From: Nitrospinaceae bacterium
GTDB lineage: Bacteria > Nitrospinota > Nitrospinia > Nitrospinales > Nitrospinaceae
Direction of reading: 5' to 3'
Length of the DNA: 64,000 nucleotides
NCBI GenBank assembly: GCA_024644405.1
Contig: JAHELC010000008.1
Span: 1 to 64,000, forward strand
Part shown: in pieces, positions 8,709-28,809 of the stretch
Numbering within the stretch: the stretch's first letter is position 1
Layout: the number at the start of each line of letters is the position of its first letter
Program-made: the position numbers and the translations under genes
Notes under the pieces: model-generated
Seen by the model: the letters and a program-made list of their open reading frames with translations, nothing else
Told to the model about the DNA's origin: nothing
The model's database searches: none

Positions 8709-8767
8709 GCGTTTTCCCACCTCACGACCTTCTCCTCTTATCCCTTCCGCAAGAAACTGCTTGGAGA

Positions 8768-8794
8768 TTGATTTACATTTAGTTACCATATAAT
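8768..8794 (+). promoter_or_regulatory. Putative sigma70-type promoter of the lipoprotein locus
   Basis: TTGATT (8768-8773) and a perfect TATAAT (8789-8794) are separated by 15 bases, 56 bases before the first lipoprotein ATG. No other -10 of this quality lies in the 141-base gap. Confidence 0.5.
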
Positions 8795-8849: not shown

Positions 8850-10886
8850 ATGAGTTCCATTAAAAGCCCTTTCCACCCCGGGAATTATCTCAAATATAAA
8901 TATACGGCCGGGATTTCCGTGCTGTTCATATTCTTGATGGGTTTTGTTGTTCAGGGATGCGTCGTCCATAAACACGGGCATAGACATCGCTCTTACGTGA
9001 AACCGGCACCAGTCACCTTTACCTTTAACAGCCATCACCGGCACACGGTCCAGAATTATTACCACCGCCACCCACTTAATTACCATGGCAACAAGCACGG
9101 TTCGAGGCAACAATGGAAATATAAAAGAAAAGCCTACTTATCCCGAGGAATACAGATGCGGGGGATACCTGTCAATTTAAGTCGTCAGTTGCCATCGGCC
9201 CCTCGTGGCACACGATATATTTACGTTGACGACCAGTTACTTCTGGTTAATGTGAAGACCCGTCGGGTATTGGATTTCATAAATATTAAGGTGTCGACCC
9301 AGCATCAGAACGCCTATAACCGGAATCCGGCTACAAAAACAGTAGACCAAATACCTTCCTACGAAGACCAACACCCCTCGAATCGGCATCTGCCACCTCC
9401 TCATGCGAGATCCCATGAAGTTTCGAAGGGCAAACCGTTCATGCAAGACGAACACCCCTCGTCCCATGGCCAGGGCCGTCGCATGAACAAAGGCAAACCC
9501 TACATAGGAGGCGAACATCCGTCTCAGCAGTCCATGAACGACCGGGGTCGCGGTCCAGGACACGGACAGGGGAAACCGTTATGGGGAGACGACCATCCGT
9601 CTTCCCAGGGCAAAAACCATAAAAAGGGTCTATCAAAGCCTGAGAGAAATCCAAATCATCCTTCTTCTCACGGCCAAGGCAACAGAGGACACCAGGGTAA
9701 ACCTATTCGAGAGGAAGATGATTCTTTATCTTATACAAAAACCGATAAAGGCCATCAGAAGGGTGGCCCCCAATGGGAAAAGGACCACCCATCGCCCATG
9801 AAACAGGGTAAATCGGGAAAACCCAAAAAGGGAAACGACCACCCCTCCTCCCACGTTAAAAAGGATAAAGGCAATCGGGGTGGATCGCAGGACGGCCAAA
9901 AAGGCGGACCTCCCAAAGGGCATGATCACCCCTCCCAAGGCAAGGGTAAACCTTCAATGGATAACCCGATGGCGGGTGATACGGAATCACACCCGATGAA
10001 CACCAAGGGAAAACCGGGTAAGGGAAAATCCAAAGGTAAGGGAAAACAAAAAGACACGTTTTCCGATTCTTCAGTGCAGAACGATTCTTCAGTGCAGGCT
10101 TTCTCTCCTTCGGAAAACAAGGGAAAACCGGGTAAGGAAAAATCCAAAGGCAAGGGAAAACAAAAAGACACGTTTTCCGATTCTTCAGTGCAGAACGATT
10201 CTTCAGTGCAGGCTTTCTCTCCTTCGGAAAACAAGGGAAAACCGGGTAAGGGAAAACAGAAGGACACATTTGCTGATTCTACAGAACAATCTTTCTCTCC
10301 TTCTAAGAACAAGGGCAAACCGTACAAGCAAGATCCGGGTTCCGCACGCGGAACTTCCGGCCAGGAAGACCGGGAACAGTACCAGCCCAGCTCCACAACC
10401 GAGGAGAACATTCAAATCGCCAAAGCAGAAAAAGGTCGTGGTAAAGGCCTCTCCAATAGGCCTGGCAAAGCTAAAAAAGCAAAACGCGATCAACACAAAC
10501 AGCAGAACATTTCTACCACTGCTGTCACACATCAGGAACCGGCCCCGAGCATGGCTCCACTGGAACCGGCCGTCACCGCCTCTTTCGCGCCATCGGTATT
10601 CGATAATAACGAACGAAACCTCATCCAGAGATATTTTCTGAATTCCAGCTCGAAAAACTCAGGCAAAGGAAAAGGGAAAAAATCCAGAGGACGAAACAAA
10701 AGCAATGGCCCCTCTGTCGCCAAGAGCGATATTCTGACGCAACCCACTGAACCCTTGCCGCGGGGCCTTGAATCCCAGCTTCCGCCTCCACCTCCCAACA
10801 CCCGGCGGGTGCTCTACAACCAGCAGGTTCTCCTCTTGGAAAGAGGAACCCATCGAGTCCTGGATGTGATCAACGTGAATAACTGA
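8850..10886 (+). CDS. Large repetitive His/Lys/Gly-rich lipoprotein with two RcnB/CigR-like end domains
   Basis: The start ATG 8850 has GGGAG at 8837-8841. A long basic N-region, a hydrophobic core and the lipobox VVQGC predict a lipoprotein of about 678 residues. The mature end is His-rich (CVVHKHGHRHRS). Residues about 55-155 form a first domain with PVTFTFNSHHRHTVQNYYHR, GIQMRGIPVNLSRQLP and LLLVNVKTRRVLDFINI, resembling RcnB/CigR-type periplasmic domains. The C-terminal about 90 residues repeat the plan (NNERNLIQRYF, LPPPPPNTRRVLYNQQVLLL, THRVLDVINV). Between them lie about 430 low-complexity residues with at least eight HPS-containing units (for example DEHPSSHGQ, DDHPSSQGK, NDHPSSHVK) and many GKPGKGK runs. 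The linker is strongly cationic. Function is unknown; metal, polyanion or surface-matrix binding is conjecture. Confidence 0.75.
   Translation: MSSIKSPFHPGNYLKYKYTAGISVLFIFLMGFVVQGCVVHKHGHRHRSYVKPAPVTFTFNSHHRHTVQNYYHRHPLNYHGNKHGSRQQWKYKRKAYLSRGIQMRGIPVNLSRQLPSAPRGTRYIYVDDQLLLVNVKTRRVLDFINIKVSTQHQNAYNRNPATKTVDQIPSYEDQHPSNRHLPPPHARSHEVSKGKPFMQDEHPSSHGQGRRMNKGKPYIGGEHPSQQSMNDRGRGPGHGQGKPLWGDDHPSSQGKNHKKGLSKPERNPNHPSSHGQGNRGHQGKPIREEDDSLSYTKTDKGHQKGGPQWEKDHPSPMKQGKSGKPKKGNDHPSSHVKKDKGNRGGSQDGQKGGPPKGHDHPSQGKGKPSMDNPMAGDTESHPMNTKGKPGKGKSKGKGKQKDTFSDSSVQNDSSVQAFSPSENKGKPGKEKSKGKGKQKDTFSDSSVQNDSSVQAFSPSENKGKPGKGKQKDTFADSTEQSFSPSKNKGKPYKQDPGSARGTSGQEDREQYQPSSTTEENIQIAKAEKGRGKGLSNRPGKAKKAKRDQHKQQNISTTAVTHQEPAPSMAPLEPAVTASFAPSVFDNNERNLIQRYFLNSSSKNSGKGKGKKSRGRNKSNGPSVAKSDILTQPTEPLPRGLESQLPPPPPNTRRVLYNQQVLLLERGTHRVLDVINVNN
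10005..10232 (+). repeat. Two tandem 114-bp repeats inside the large lipoprotein gene
   Basis: Two copies (10005-10118 and 10119-10232) are nearly identical. I count two base differences: G to A in the lysine/glycine run and T to C shortly after. They are followed by a shorter degenerate third copy from 10233. The period is 38 codons, so the frame is kept. Each copy also holds an internal near-duplicate of GATTCTTCAGTGCAG. The near-identity suggests recent duplication. Confidence 0.9.
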
Positions 10887-11059
10887 ATTTAGAAGCGTCC
10901 GGGGCATTGTCGAAGTCGCCTTTAAGCAGGCGAAATTCAAGGATAATCAAAAAAGACTTCGTATACCTCCGTGATCTGCTTAACATATTAGAAGGAATTA
11001 AATTTATCGTGAGGGGGCTTACTGCAGGAATTTCATATAGTTTTAGGGAGGTATTTGTT

Positions 11060-11302
11060 ATGATTTCTGATGAAACTCGGAAGATGCACCCCACGACCCG
11101 TTTAACCTTTAAACGATTTCTGGCGCCAACTTGTCTGGGGTTGGTTTTTATTTTGTTAACGGCCGTATTTATGTCCGGCTGTGTTGTCCACCGCCACGGA
11201 CATGGATACAAGCGCGGCCATGGACACCACCACAAAGGGCATATTAAAATTAAACCCTCCGTGGGGGTTTCTGTTTCCCCCATGATCGTCATTGATGATT
11301 GA
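11060..11302 (+). CDS. Small His-rich lipoprotein
   Basis: An 80-residue protein with start ATG 11060 and a strong Shine-Dalgarno AGGGAGG at 11045-11051. Residues about 18-40 are a signal sequence ending in the lipobox FMSGC. The mature part is only about 40 residues and very His/Gly/Lys-rich (HRHGHGYKRGHGHHHKGH), followed by a short valine-rich tail. It matches the start of the two flanking lipoproteins but lacks their C-terminal domain. It may be a minimal member of the same set, perhaps binding metal; function is not established. A longer in-frame opening from 10907 has no good ribosome site. Confidence 0.75.
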   Translation: MISDETRKMHPTTRLTFKRFLAPTCLGLVFILLTAVFMSGCVVHRHGHGYKRGHGHHHKGHIKIKPSVGVSVSPMIVIDD

Positions 11303-11320
11303 TTCAAGGAGAACCCGCTT

Positions 11321-11863
11321 ATGCTTTTCGACAAACCCGACCCAATGAACCCAAGCCTTCCGATCCAGTCCTCTAACACGGGGACTCGAACCCGGATGGC
11401 TTCATTCATCGCGATTCTGTTTCTGACCGCCGTTCTTGCTTCGGGATGCGTTATTCATGATCCCAACCGGGGTGGCTATAACACTTACGGAGGCCCGGTT
11501 GCCGTCCAACCCCGCGTAGCGGTCGCCGTTCCGGCACCGGTCACCTTTACTTTTACCGATAACCACAGGCACAGGGTCCGGGATTATTACCACCATCACC
11601 CACATAGATACGACAAACGGCACAAGTGGAAAAATAAGTGGAAGCGCAAGGGAAGAAAACACTTGCCACCGGGTCTGCGCAGACGGGATGTTCTGCCTCC
11701 GGGAATACAGATGCAGGTGATCCCCTCCGATTTAGGGCGCCAGTTACCCCCGCCGCCTCGCGGGACAAGATATGGTTATTATGAAGATCGGGTGCTTCTG
11801 TTTGATGTGCAGACCCGCGTGGTACTGGATTTCATCGATATAACGGTGTCAACGGGATATTAG
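11321..11863 (+). CDS. Lipoprotein with a single RcnB/CigR-like domain
   Basis: 180 residues from ATG 11321, with AAGGAGA at 11306-11312. The signal sequence ends in the lipobox LASGC. The mature part begins with a Gly/Pro/Val-rich stretch, then PAPVTFTFTDNHRHRVRDYY and a very basic His/Lys region. It ends with LPPGIQMQVIPSDLGRQLPP, GTRYGYYEDRVLLFDVQT and VVLDFIDITVS. This is the same order of elements as the N-terminal domain of the large lipoprotein at 8850, so the two are paralogues. An in-frame ATG at 11396 would leave a shorter signal sequence, but the ribosome site favours 11321. It converges on the next gene with a 16-base gap. Confidence 0.78.
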   Translation: MLFDKPDPMNPSLPIQSSNTGTRTRMASFIAILFLTAVLASGCVIHDPNRGGYNTYGGPVAVQPRVAVAVPAPVTFTFTDNHRHRVRDYYHHHPHRYDKRHKWKNKWKRKGRKHLPPGLRRRDVLPPGIQMQVIPSDLGRQLPPPPRGTRYGYYEDRVLLFDVQTRVVLDFIDITVSTGY

Positions 11864-14161: not shown

Positions 14162-15133
14162 CTATTCATCAACCAGAATTTCACGGCGCTGGTTATAAAA
14201 ATCACGGAGGCTTATATAGGGGTCGATGGCGCCTTCCTTCAACGCTTTGATATCTTCGATGAAGAATGAGGTCTCGTTGACCATCTGTTCGGAAGTGACG
14301 CCGGCACCGGTGGCAAAGTCGGGCACCAGCCAGAACAGGGGATTCATCAGGGCATCCACGGCCCGGCCCACGCCATCTCTGACCGAGGATGGCCCCAGTA
14401 AAGGAAGCACCAGATAGGGACCTGGCGGAATTCCGTAAAATCCCAAAACCTGGCCAAAGTCCTCATCCACCGGTTTTATACCGAACTCTTCATTTGCGAC
14501 ATCCACCATGCACACAAATCCCAGGGTGCAATTGATCAGGACCCGGCCGATCACCCGGCCGGCTTTATCCAGCTTGAACTGGAGCAAACTGCTGACAAAT
14601 CGTCCGGGGAAGGTCACCGTTTGATAAAGATTTCGTATCATGATCCGAAAGTTTTCGGCCAGCAGGTCTTTGTAGGTCTGTGCCACCGGCCGCAAAAAGT
14701 ATTCATAAAAGTGATCGTTGAACACATAAACCGGGCGGTTGTACCACCTCTCCAAAGGATCGGACATGTGAGCAATTTCTTTTTCTTCATCTGCAAAAGG
14801 GTCCTCTTCAAGATCAGAAGCCGTGTCGGCATCATCTCCAAAGGGATCATCCTCTTCCAGAGCTTCGTCGGAATAAGGGTCCACTTCCGGTGGATTCGCC
14901 GGTGGTTCGGCTTGTACCCGGTTAGAGTCCTGGGGAAGATTCTGGGACTTGAATACCACGTCGCCCTGAGCATTGAATTGGAGGGCGGATAAAACTTCCG
15001 CAGGGCTTGAGAAATAGGAGGCAAACGAAGAACTGGGAAGAACCAGCAGGCCAAGTACCAGACAATATAAGGGGAGGCGTTTTGCCTGCTCACAAAACGG
15101 TTTCCTTGAGCTGGCTGTGGTCTTAAAGATCAT
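14162..15133 (-). CDS. mlaA: MlaA/VacJ family protein with acidic linker
   Basis: Member of the outer-membrane lipid-asymmetry family, which removes misplaced phospholipids from the outer leaflet. The core is recognisable from SDPLERWYNRPVYVFNDHFY (about residue 120) through FPGRFVSSLLQ, GFVCMVDVANEEFGIK, DEDFGQVLGFYGIPPGPYLV and PLLGPSSVRDGVGR. From ATG 15133 there is a signal peptide (LYCLVLGLLVLPSSSFASYF) but no lipobox cysteine, unlike E. coli MlaA. About 80 residues with a very acidic segment (DEALEEDDPFGDDADTASD) precede the domain. An in-frame TTG at 15169 is an alternative start; neither has a clear ribosome site. No mlaFEDBC genes are nearby. Confidence 0.88.
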   Translation of the reverse strand: MIFKTTASSRKPFCEQAKRLPLYCLVLGLLVLPSSSFASYFSSPAEVLSALQFNAQGDVVFKSQNLPQDSNRVQAEPPANPPEVDPYSDEALEEDDPFGDDADTASDLEEDPFADEEKEIAHMSDPLERWYNRPVYVFNDHFYEYFLRPVAQTYKDLLAENFRIMIRNLYQTVTFPGRFVSSLLQFKLDKAGRVIGRVLINCTLGFVCMVDVANEEFGIKPVDEDFGQVLGFYGIPPGPYLVLPLLGPSSVRDGVGRAVDALMNPLFWLVPDFATGAGVTSEQMVNETSFFIEDIKALKEGAIDPYISLRDFYNQRREILVDE

Positions 15134-15223
15134 AGGTGAGTGATATTCAGGAAAATCCAGGGTCAGCAAAAAGGCACTAAAAAGGTATCAAATCAGTCTA
15201 ACAGAAGGCTTTAGGCATGGCAA

Positions 15224-26721: not shown

Positions 26722-27621
26722 ATGACCCGCTCCGGGGTAAAATTTGATAAATATTTGAAATTATTTGTCTTAGGGTTATCCATGCTCCTGCTGAGCGCTT
26801 TCTACCCGATTCTTGCTGAAGTATCCGGTCCGCTCAATACTTCGGCTTTTATCAACTCTCAGGGAGAATACCCCTCGTTTGTTCCCAAGGGAGATATCCG
26901 GCGCTTTACGGGAGAAACACTCACATATGACATCGACTTCCTTTTCTTCGAAAAGGCGGCTACCGCAAAGGTGCGCTTTTATGAGTACAAGGGGAAATAT
27001 TATTCAACGCTGTCTGCTGAAACCAGGGGCGTGGTGGGCTTTTTCACCAATTACCGTAAACACTATTACAAGTCGTCATTCGACATTGTCGACCAGGGCC
27101 AACGGGTCCAAACCCATAAATTCGAAAGAGATGTGATCATCGGCAGGGAAAAAGAGCGTACCGTTCACTTTCTGGACTATGCCTCTCACACTCACTTCTG
27201 GTTCCTGTTTAGCGGGGGCGACCTGAAAGAGCGCCAGCGTAACCCCATTCCTGAAGGAGTCATCTATGACGATATCCTTGCGTTCTTTTACAATTTCCGT
27301 AATGGGGTGTACGGTAATTTGAAAAAAGGAAGGACTTACAAGATTGATACCGTGCCGGACCTAAGCATGAAAAGCATTACCACTTATATCAGTACTGAAG
27401 AGGAGCAGGAACTATTTCGCATCAAAGAAAACCGAACCAAAAATGACGAGATGTTATTGAAGGTACTCATTCCAAAAGATGTCTTCAAAACTGAAACCGG
27501 GGAGCTGGTCTTCTGGGCTTCCAACCACTATATACCTCTCGAAACCACGATTAAGGACTACCTCCTGCTGGGGGATTTGCATGGGAGACTGACCAACGGG
27601 ATACCGGGTAAATTAAATTAA
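26722..27621 (+). CDS. DUF3108-like exported protein, copy 1
   Basis: 299 residues with an N-terminal hydrophobic signal (KLFVLGLSMLLLSAFYPILA). The body begins GDIRRFTGETLTYDIDFLFF and continues AKVRFYEYKGKYYSTLSAET and GFFTNYRKHYYKSSFDIVDQ, then FYNFRNGVYGNLKKGRTYKI. That is the periplasmic beta-rich DUF3108 pattern as I recall it. It is a clear paralogue of the gene at 27844, with the same motif order. Function is unknown; the family is associated with the envelope. The gene has its own start ATG at 26722 and a 222-base gap to the second copy. Confidence 0.72.
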   Translation: MTRSGVKFDKYLKLFVLGLSMLLLSAFYPILAEVSGPLNTSAFINSQGEYPSFVPKGDIRRFTGETLTYDIDFLFFEKAATAKVRFYEYKGKYYSTLSAETRGVVGFFTNYRKHYYKSSFDIVDQGQRVQTHKFERDVIIGREKERTVHFLDYASHTHFWFLFSGGDLKERQRNPIPEGVIYDDILAFFYNFRNGVYGNLKKGRTYKIDTVPDLSMKSITTYISTEEEQELFRIKENRTKNDEMLLKVLIPKDVFKTETGELVFWASNHYIPLETTIKDYLLLGDLHGRLTNGIPGKLN

Positions 27622-27843: not shown

Positions 27844-28809
27844 ATGAAGCTCCCTCCTTACAAATTACTTATCCAGAAAATTTTAAAAGTTTTTTTCGTT
27901 ATCTGCTGGCTTGGCATCAGCTCCACCCCCGCCTTGTCGGAAACTTCGAAAAGCCCAACCCTTGGCACCTATGCCTCGTTCTCACCGAATGGGGATATTC
28001 GCCGTTTTGCCGGCGAAACGCTTTTCTTTGATATGGACTTTATGATTTTTTCAAAAGCCGCTCAGGCGCAAATCAGTTTTTACGAGGAAAACGGCAAATT
28101 CAAATGCATTCTGGTGGCCGAAACCCAGGGTCTGGTGGGTTTTCTGACCTCTTACGTCAAGCATATTTATAAATCCACCTTCGACATCATTGATAACGGG
28201 AAACGCTTGCGCACCACAACATTCGAACGGGAAATCATTGATGGAAGTGACCGGGAGCGAATCGTCCATGTTATGGATTACCTTGCCAAGCGTCACTACT
28301 GGTTTTCATACGATAATGAAACGCTGGTGAAGCAGGACAACGAATCGATTACGGGAGAAGATCCCCTGGACGACGTTCTGGGGCTCTTTTACAATTTTCG
28401 CAACGGTGCTTACGGAAAAATTGAAAAAGGGGGTATATACAAAGTCCCCACCTTCTGGACCAAGGGCAGTTCCAGAACCGCAACCAACGAAATGTCCATT
28501 TACATATCCACCAATTCGGAAAGAGCAAAATTCGAGGAAGAAGAAAGTGGCCAGGAACTGGCCGCTAAGATGCTGATGAAGGTGATGGTTCCTTCAGACT
28601 TGTTTGAAACCAAAAATGGGGAATTATATTTTTGGTCGTCGGAGCACTATGTCCCGCTGGAAGCGATTTATAAGGATTTCATCCTGTTTGGGGATCTGCA
28701 CATCAAATTTGTCAAACGGACGGTGCTCCCGGCCAACCCCCTCGCTTCCACACGGCACTGCTCCTCTAAACATCCCAGGTCGGCAACGGCGGATCCTGCC
28801 AAATGTTAA
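27844..28809 (+). CDS. DUF3108-like exported protein, copy 2
   Basis: 321 residues with a signal peptide (KVFFVICWLGISSTPALSET). The body parallels copy 1: GDIRRFAGETLFFDMDFMIF, AQISFYEENGKFKCILVAET, GFLTSYVKHIYKSTFDIIDN, FYNFRNGAYGKIEKGGIYKV and HYVPLEAIYKDFILFGDLHI. The last about 25 residues have no counterpart in copy 1. They are encoded over the 3' end of the convergent gene at 28766-29110 (44-base overlap), so they may be a read-on tail. Tandem duplication with divergence is the simplest origin. Confidence 0.72.
   Translation: MKLPPYKLLIQKILKVFFVICWLGISSTPALSETSKSPTLGTYASFSPNGDIRRFAGETLFFDMDFMIFSKAAQAQISFYEENGKFKCILVAETQGLVGFLTSYVKHIYKSTFDIIDNGKRLRTTTFEREIIDGSDRERIVHVMDYLAKRHYWFSYDNETLVKQDNESITGEDPLDDVLGLFYNFRNGAYGKIEKGGIYKVPTFWTKGSSRTATNEMSIYISTNSERAKFEEEESGQELAAKMLMKVMVPSDLFETKNGELYFWSSEHYVPLEAIYKDFILFGDLHIKFVKRTVLPANPLASTRHCSSKHPRSATADPAKC

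Follow-up and report, generated by a model that had tools for sequence, protein, structure and literature searches.

What do three tandem genes with lipoprotein-like, histidine-rich starts encode, and how did one of them come to carry related domains at both of its ends? We addressed these questions for genes A, B, and C, which lie within a 64,000-nucleotide stretch of DNA (the window, to which coordinates below refer) on contig C39 of a 2.98 Mb genome (G000; related genomes are likewise given as G numbers). The host was taken as a member of the Nitrospinaceae, phylum Nitrospinota.

Organization of the locus

All three genes are on the + strand, flanked by genes for a GNAT acetyltransferase and, in convergent orientation, a DUF255/thioredoxin protein, and the start codon of each is preceded by what we judged by eye to be a good Shine-Dalgarno sequence. 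The features of the locus are as follows.

8760..8794, + strand: conserved promoter-like block 5' of A (CTTGGAGATTGATTTACATTTAGTTACCATATAAT), alignable in four species, including at the chimeric single gene of G002; a consensus match only
8850..10886, + strand: gene A, a predicted lipoprotein of 678 aa with two CigR/RcnB-like modules and a long repeat linker; open reading frame over the Pfam RcnB cut-off, with orthologues in G007, G005, and G003
8850..8957, + strand: signal peptide of A, followed by the predicted lipidated Cys codon (8958-8960); conserved PS51257 match
9006..9296, + strand: N-terminal module of A (A-N), lipobox-proximal and probably of C-lineage origin; RcnB match of 27.5 bits, nested in the C clade, 51–52% identity to C
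9297..10574, + strand: linker of A, 426 aa of low complexity (G/K/S/P/Q) with ~21-aa GKP...HPS units; word counts, 41–50% identity between species, dN/dS <1
10004..10256, + strand: tandem duplication within the linker, unit of 114 bp (38 aa), 2.2 copies, 97% matches; a gap in the other three A orthologues
10575..10883, + strand: C-terminal module of A (A-C), distal and better conserved than the rest of A; 52 columns invariant across four species, hhalign, AlphaFold, Foldseek
11060..11302, + strand: gene B, 80 aa, a predicted His-rich lipoprotein of 40 mature residues, homologous to the start of C; among 77 phylum genomes, confined to those of this genus
11321..11863, + strand: gene C, a predicted single-module CigR/RcnB-like lipoprotein of 180 aa; orthologues in G005, G007, G003, and G006

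The original prediction, made from the sequence of the window, described three tandem genes that each encode a lipobox followed by a His-rich start – a description that proved accurate down to its coordinates. Each protein matches the PS51257 lipobox pattern (FVVQG-C37 in A, VFMSG-C41 in B, VLASG-C43 in C), as do all 12 of the locus proteins checked in six genomes, and all are thus predicted to be lipidated. The first 60 mature residues contain 8–13 histidines in each protein, B having 8 in its 40. Small His-rich lipoproteins are common in Gram-negative bacteria.

C and both ends of A resemble the CigR/RcnB family

C and the two ends of A share a module that consists of a helix, a basic stretch, and a three-stranded hairpin. 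Consistent with the predicted RcnB/CigR-like domain common to A and C, the Pfam RcnB profile (PF11776; gathering cut-off 25.9 bits) matched full-length A at 28.0 bits, through two separate stretches, and C at 22.0 bits. Searched as separate pieces, A-N scored 27.5, C 24.8, and A-C 17.1 bits, the latter two under the cut-off. Scores also fell under the cut-off for DUF1236 (PF06823; A 21.3 and C 17.3 bits vs 32.4) and for the NCBIfam CigR profile (NF040487), which C matched at 24.2 bits vs a cut-off of 78 and A did not match.

The two ends of A are homologous to one another: BLASTP aligned them with 44% identity over 41 aa, and hhalign matched 90 columns at 97% (E=1e-10). Each end also matched an independent CigR-like profile (E=1e-16 for A-C, by hhalign to proteins of other phyla, and 1e-10 for A-N). 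When a profile containing only Nitrospinaceae C-type rows was searched against the PDB, Salmonella CigR (4ew5) was the sole significant match (E=1.6e-7), and adding homologues from other phyla brought this match to E=1e-15; A-C alone had no match in the PDB by phmmer. AlphaFold models of moderate confidence (mean pLDDT 67 for C and 71 for A-C) place the same elements in the same order in both – helix, disordered basic stretch, short helix, and three strands – and 4ew5 was the first Foldseek match for each (probability 1.00 for C and 0.87–0.96 for A-C). The Foldseek E-values are weak (6e-3 to 9e-2), so the fold match supports a relationship to CigR but does not prove it. Taken together, profiles and models show that these modules are related to CigR/RcnB in sequence and predicted fold. 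The module has no other significant occurrence in the G000 genome.

The two modules of A come from different lineages

In a module tree, the A-N sequences of G000 and G007 fall inside the C clade (support 100/100), and A-C forms its own clade beside the gene from G009 (80/77). Forcing A-N and A-C together was rejected by an AU test (p=0.004), which rules out an internal duplication as the source of the two ends; a C clade that excludes A-N was not rejected (p=0.13). These phylogenies show that the modules of A come from two different lineages, with A-C the separate, deeper one. A-N, C, and B are paralogous. A would therefore either have gained its N-terminal module from the C lineage or have been reduced in G003, whose A carries the C-end module only. 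The original reading of the locus as duplication followed by domain loss holds for B, a truncated paralogue, but not for the ends of A; likewise, the two-ended form stands in this genome but is not universal.

B had been predicted to be reduced to a signal and a His-rich tail and in fact shares homology with C over the latter's first ~70 residues (hhalign 97.8%, E=1e-12). Its conserved ending, HIKIKPxVGVSVSPMIVIDD, is invariant and its dN/dS is 0.15–0.33, which excludes a decaying pseudogene. B was not found outside this genus in 77 genomes of the phylum. Weak matches of B to MLANA and DmeF were dismissed as hits to His-rich or hydrophobic composition.

No comparison gave a dN/dS of 1 or more (A-C 0.10–0.25, A-N 0.27–0.41, C 0.17–0.47, linker 0.22–0.73), with the GNAT neighbor as a yardstick at 0.08–0.12, though these values are rough because dS often exceeds 1 and some estimates failed. 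The comparisons indicate that the locus is under purifying selection. A-C being the best conserved piece of A suggests that the distal end of the protein may matter most.

Two alphaproteobacterial genomes contain adjacent gene pairs with one module each (G152:C1:2985079-2985797 and G128:C11:86960-87659), showing that tandem duplication of this module family also occurs elsewhere.

The linker is long and repetitive in several species but not consistently basic

The ~430-residue Gly/Lys/Pro/His linker with recurring HPS units that had been proposed for A corresponds to residues 150–575, a stretch rich in G, K, S, P, and Q. HPS occurs 8 times in it, vs 0.27 expected in shuffles (maximum 3 in 2000), and GKP 10 times, vs 0.74 expected from composition; HPS words are often 21 residues apart and occupy corresponding places in orthologues.

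Repeat expansion, also part of the original prediction, accounts for only part of this length. The linker is already 375 aa long in G007 and G003, so that only ~50 aa are new in this genome, and these correspond to the 114-bp tandem duplication. The description of the linker as cationic did not survive comparison either: among the three complete orthologues its net charge (K+R-D-E) is +29 here, -5 in G007, and +15 in G003, as expected of a polyampholyte rather than a conserved polycation.

The locus occupies a single accessory site

The locus is one syntenic accessory site, between the GNAT and DUF255 genes, and is present there in six of the eight genomes of the genus. G007 carries all three genes, as do G005, where A is cut by a contig end, and G003, where they lie on two contigs. 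Only the end of C is visible in G006, at a contig edge. In G002 the site is occupied by one gene (L024 5464-5967) that combines an A-like upstream block and signal with a C-like body, the switch falling around the lipobox – the kind of chimera that recombination between A and C would produce by deleting the interval between them. G009, a 72% complete genome from another genus, also has a single gene at this site. In G001 (same genus, 95% complete; L053), G008, and G010 the site is empty, with the GNAT gene directly next to the DUF255 gene.

The flanking genes give a species tree that does not resolve relationships within the genus but groups G002 with G001 and G005 (88/96). Since G005 has all three genes, derived loss is the most plausible reading of the states of G002 and G001. 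Across 77 genomes of the phylum, RcnB matches at E≤0.01 were confined to this genus, the G009 gene being too diverged for Pfam. The shared site and flanking genes in several genomes make MAG contamination unlikely. Two outcomes would have counted against the original prediction: end domains with no relation in profile-profile comparison, or a locus both absent from all close relatives and free of purifying selection. Neither was observed.

One locus provides a comparative series that runs from no gene (G001) through a single gene (G002, G009) and a one-ended tether (G003) to a two-ended form (G000, G007), within a phylum that plays a major part in nitrite oxidation in the sea. Such a series could reveal which part – anchor, His-rich tail, linker, or module – carries the function of a module that is widespread in Proteobacteria and whose biochemical function is hardly known.

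Relationship to described CigR/RcnB proteins

The domain itself is known, and the locus is a genuine variant of the CigR/RcnB family, specific to this lineage and under selection. With CigR (4ew5, NF040487) it shares the helix, the basic stretch, one or more LPPGLxKR turns, an LPxxLxxxLP element, and a hairpin with ..VLLIDxxTxxVLD... It differs from CigR in its predicted lipidation, His-richness, occurrence in Nitrospinaceae, and lack of an operon link to mgtC, in the two modules and ~430-aa linker of A, and in falling short of the NCBIfam cut-off. The likeness to RcnB (PF11776, E. coli RcnB) covers the hairpin half of the module, and A passes the curated cut-off, whereas A-C and C do not, the proteins are predicted lipoproteins, and 12 Nitrospinaceae genomes have no RcnA/NicO. 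DUF1236 matches the same hairpin weakly, below its cut-off.

In Alphaproteobacteria and other phyla, secreted CigR-like proteins (e.g., L063, L066, and L070) have the helix, a KG-rich stretch, and the hairpin, at 23–36% identity, but they carry one module per frame, and none of 22 homologues from phyla other than Nitrospinota has a lipobox. We found the module in 27 of 142 alphaproteobacterial genomes (30 matches), always once per reading frame and in frames of ≤305 aa; none of these 142 genomes showed the lipidated, His-rich, two-module form. Our literature search, which covered few subscription papers, found no lipidated or two-module RcnB/CigR member, and as far as it shows, the two-module tether architecture has not been described for this family.

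A 1945-aa cadherin-like protein of Rubellimicrobium roseum (L081 436-6273) terminates in LPPGLAKRDVLPPGL repeats and lacks the hairpin.

Possible roles in the cell envelope

Characterized relatives of these proteins affect metals, the envelope, or both. Deletion of rcnB in E. coli changes (lowers) intracellular Ni/Co (PMC7917058), and its loss in A. baumannii weakens envelope/membrane integrity and alters metal-ion metabolism (PMC13371490). In Rhizobium, a DUF1236 gene ranks with those most strongly induced by aluminium (PMC8909678), and CigR binds and sequesters MgtC (PMC6658541; PMC11942329). These family facts, together with the absence of RcnA/NicO and the unlinked position of mgtC, lead us to favor – tentatively, and at a little less than even confidence – a role in handling metal/cation stress in the envelope, broadly as in the RcnB/CigR family, with A as a long-reach tether form.

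Under this metal/cation model, A, B, and C would be lipid-anchored proteins that face the periplasm and are built on the small RcnB/CigR module, and the lack of an Asp at position +2 of the lipid anchor would place them at the outer membrane. The anchor-proximal His-rich segment may bind or buffer divalent metal, and the module may dock on a partner or on envelope polymers. The disordered linker of ~375–430 residues (contour ~150 nm; reach ~20 nm by polymer scaling) would let the distal A-C reach ~20 nm from the anchor, across the periplasm. C might do the same job close to the membrane, with B contributing only a His-rich tail. Several observations weigh against this reading. The lipobox-proximal module is missing from A of G003, so two-endedness is not essential; G001 has lost the locus and G002 retains a reduced form; its neighbors (aminotransferase, FMN reductase, GNAT, and DUF255/thioredoxin genes) include no metal gene; the RcnA/NicO pump is absent from the 12 family genomes; small His-rich lipoproteins are, as noted above, common; and the structural evidence has the moderate model confidence and weak Foldseek E-values given above.

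A more specific proposal, which we consider doubtful, is that A is a periplasm-spanning tether, with a CigR-like module near the outer-membrane anchor and a differently derived one on a flexible ~20-nm arm. One A protein could then connect two layers of the envelope, or join one layer to a metal-handling partner, its two-module architecture having been assembled by recombination between neighboring paralogues.

We regard two further explanations as rather unlikely, and about equally so. The modules might bind an MgtC-family inner-membrane protein, as Salmonella CigR does, with the linker of A giving outer-membrane-anchored reach. CigR is the closest solved structure and its sequestration of MgtC is known, and an MgtC-family gene (PF02308) occurs in seven of the eight genus genomes and was not detected in sister genera. 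This gene is unlinked to the locus, however, lying on another contig (G000:C1:85283-85666); G001 and G004 have MgtC but no locus match; G009 has the single gene with no MgtC detected; and the NCBIfam CigR cut-off was missed. Alternatively, and as the original prediction proposed, a basic linker could bind polyanions such as LPS, polyphosphate, or peptidoglycan. The pI of mature A (10.2), the linker charge in this genome, and the short basic stretch inside each module – a feature of most of the CigR/RcnB-like family – are consistent with this idea, but the charge is not conserved and the linker is the least conserved part of A (41–50% identity between species).

It is improbable that the locus is a near-neutral accessory region whose repeats and duplications serve no important function and which is heading to loss. 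Its loss in G001, contraction in G002, missing N-terminal module in G003, and faster evolution than the GNAT neighbor (dN/dS 0.1–0.5 vs ~0.1) fit drift; the reading frames nevertheless all remain open in four species, the tails of A and B are invariant, dN/dS stays below 1 everywhere, and the upstream block is conserved. A literal RcnB role, accessory to Ni/Co efflux by RcnA, is very improbable despite the Pfam match of A, as searches of 12 family genomes found no NicO/RcnA homologue (PF03824; controls positive) and the proteins are predicted to be lipidated rather than soluble in the periplasm.

Other genes in the window

Just past the DUF255 gene is an MlaA lipoprotein gene (outer-membrane lipid asymmetry; 14162-15169, - strand; Pfam E=6e-58), followed by a TPR gene, in an order retained in relatives. 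Further along, 26722-27621 and 27844-28809 (+ strand) encode tandem, similar secreted proteins that contain ..GDIRRFxGETLxxDxDFxxFxKAAxAxxxFYE.. and have no Pfam match.
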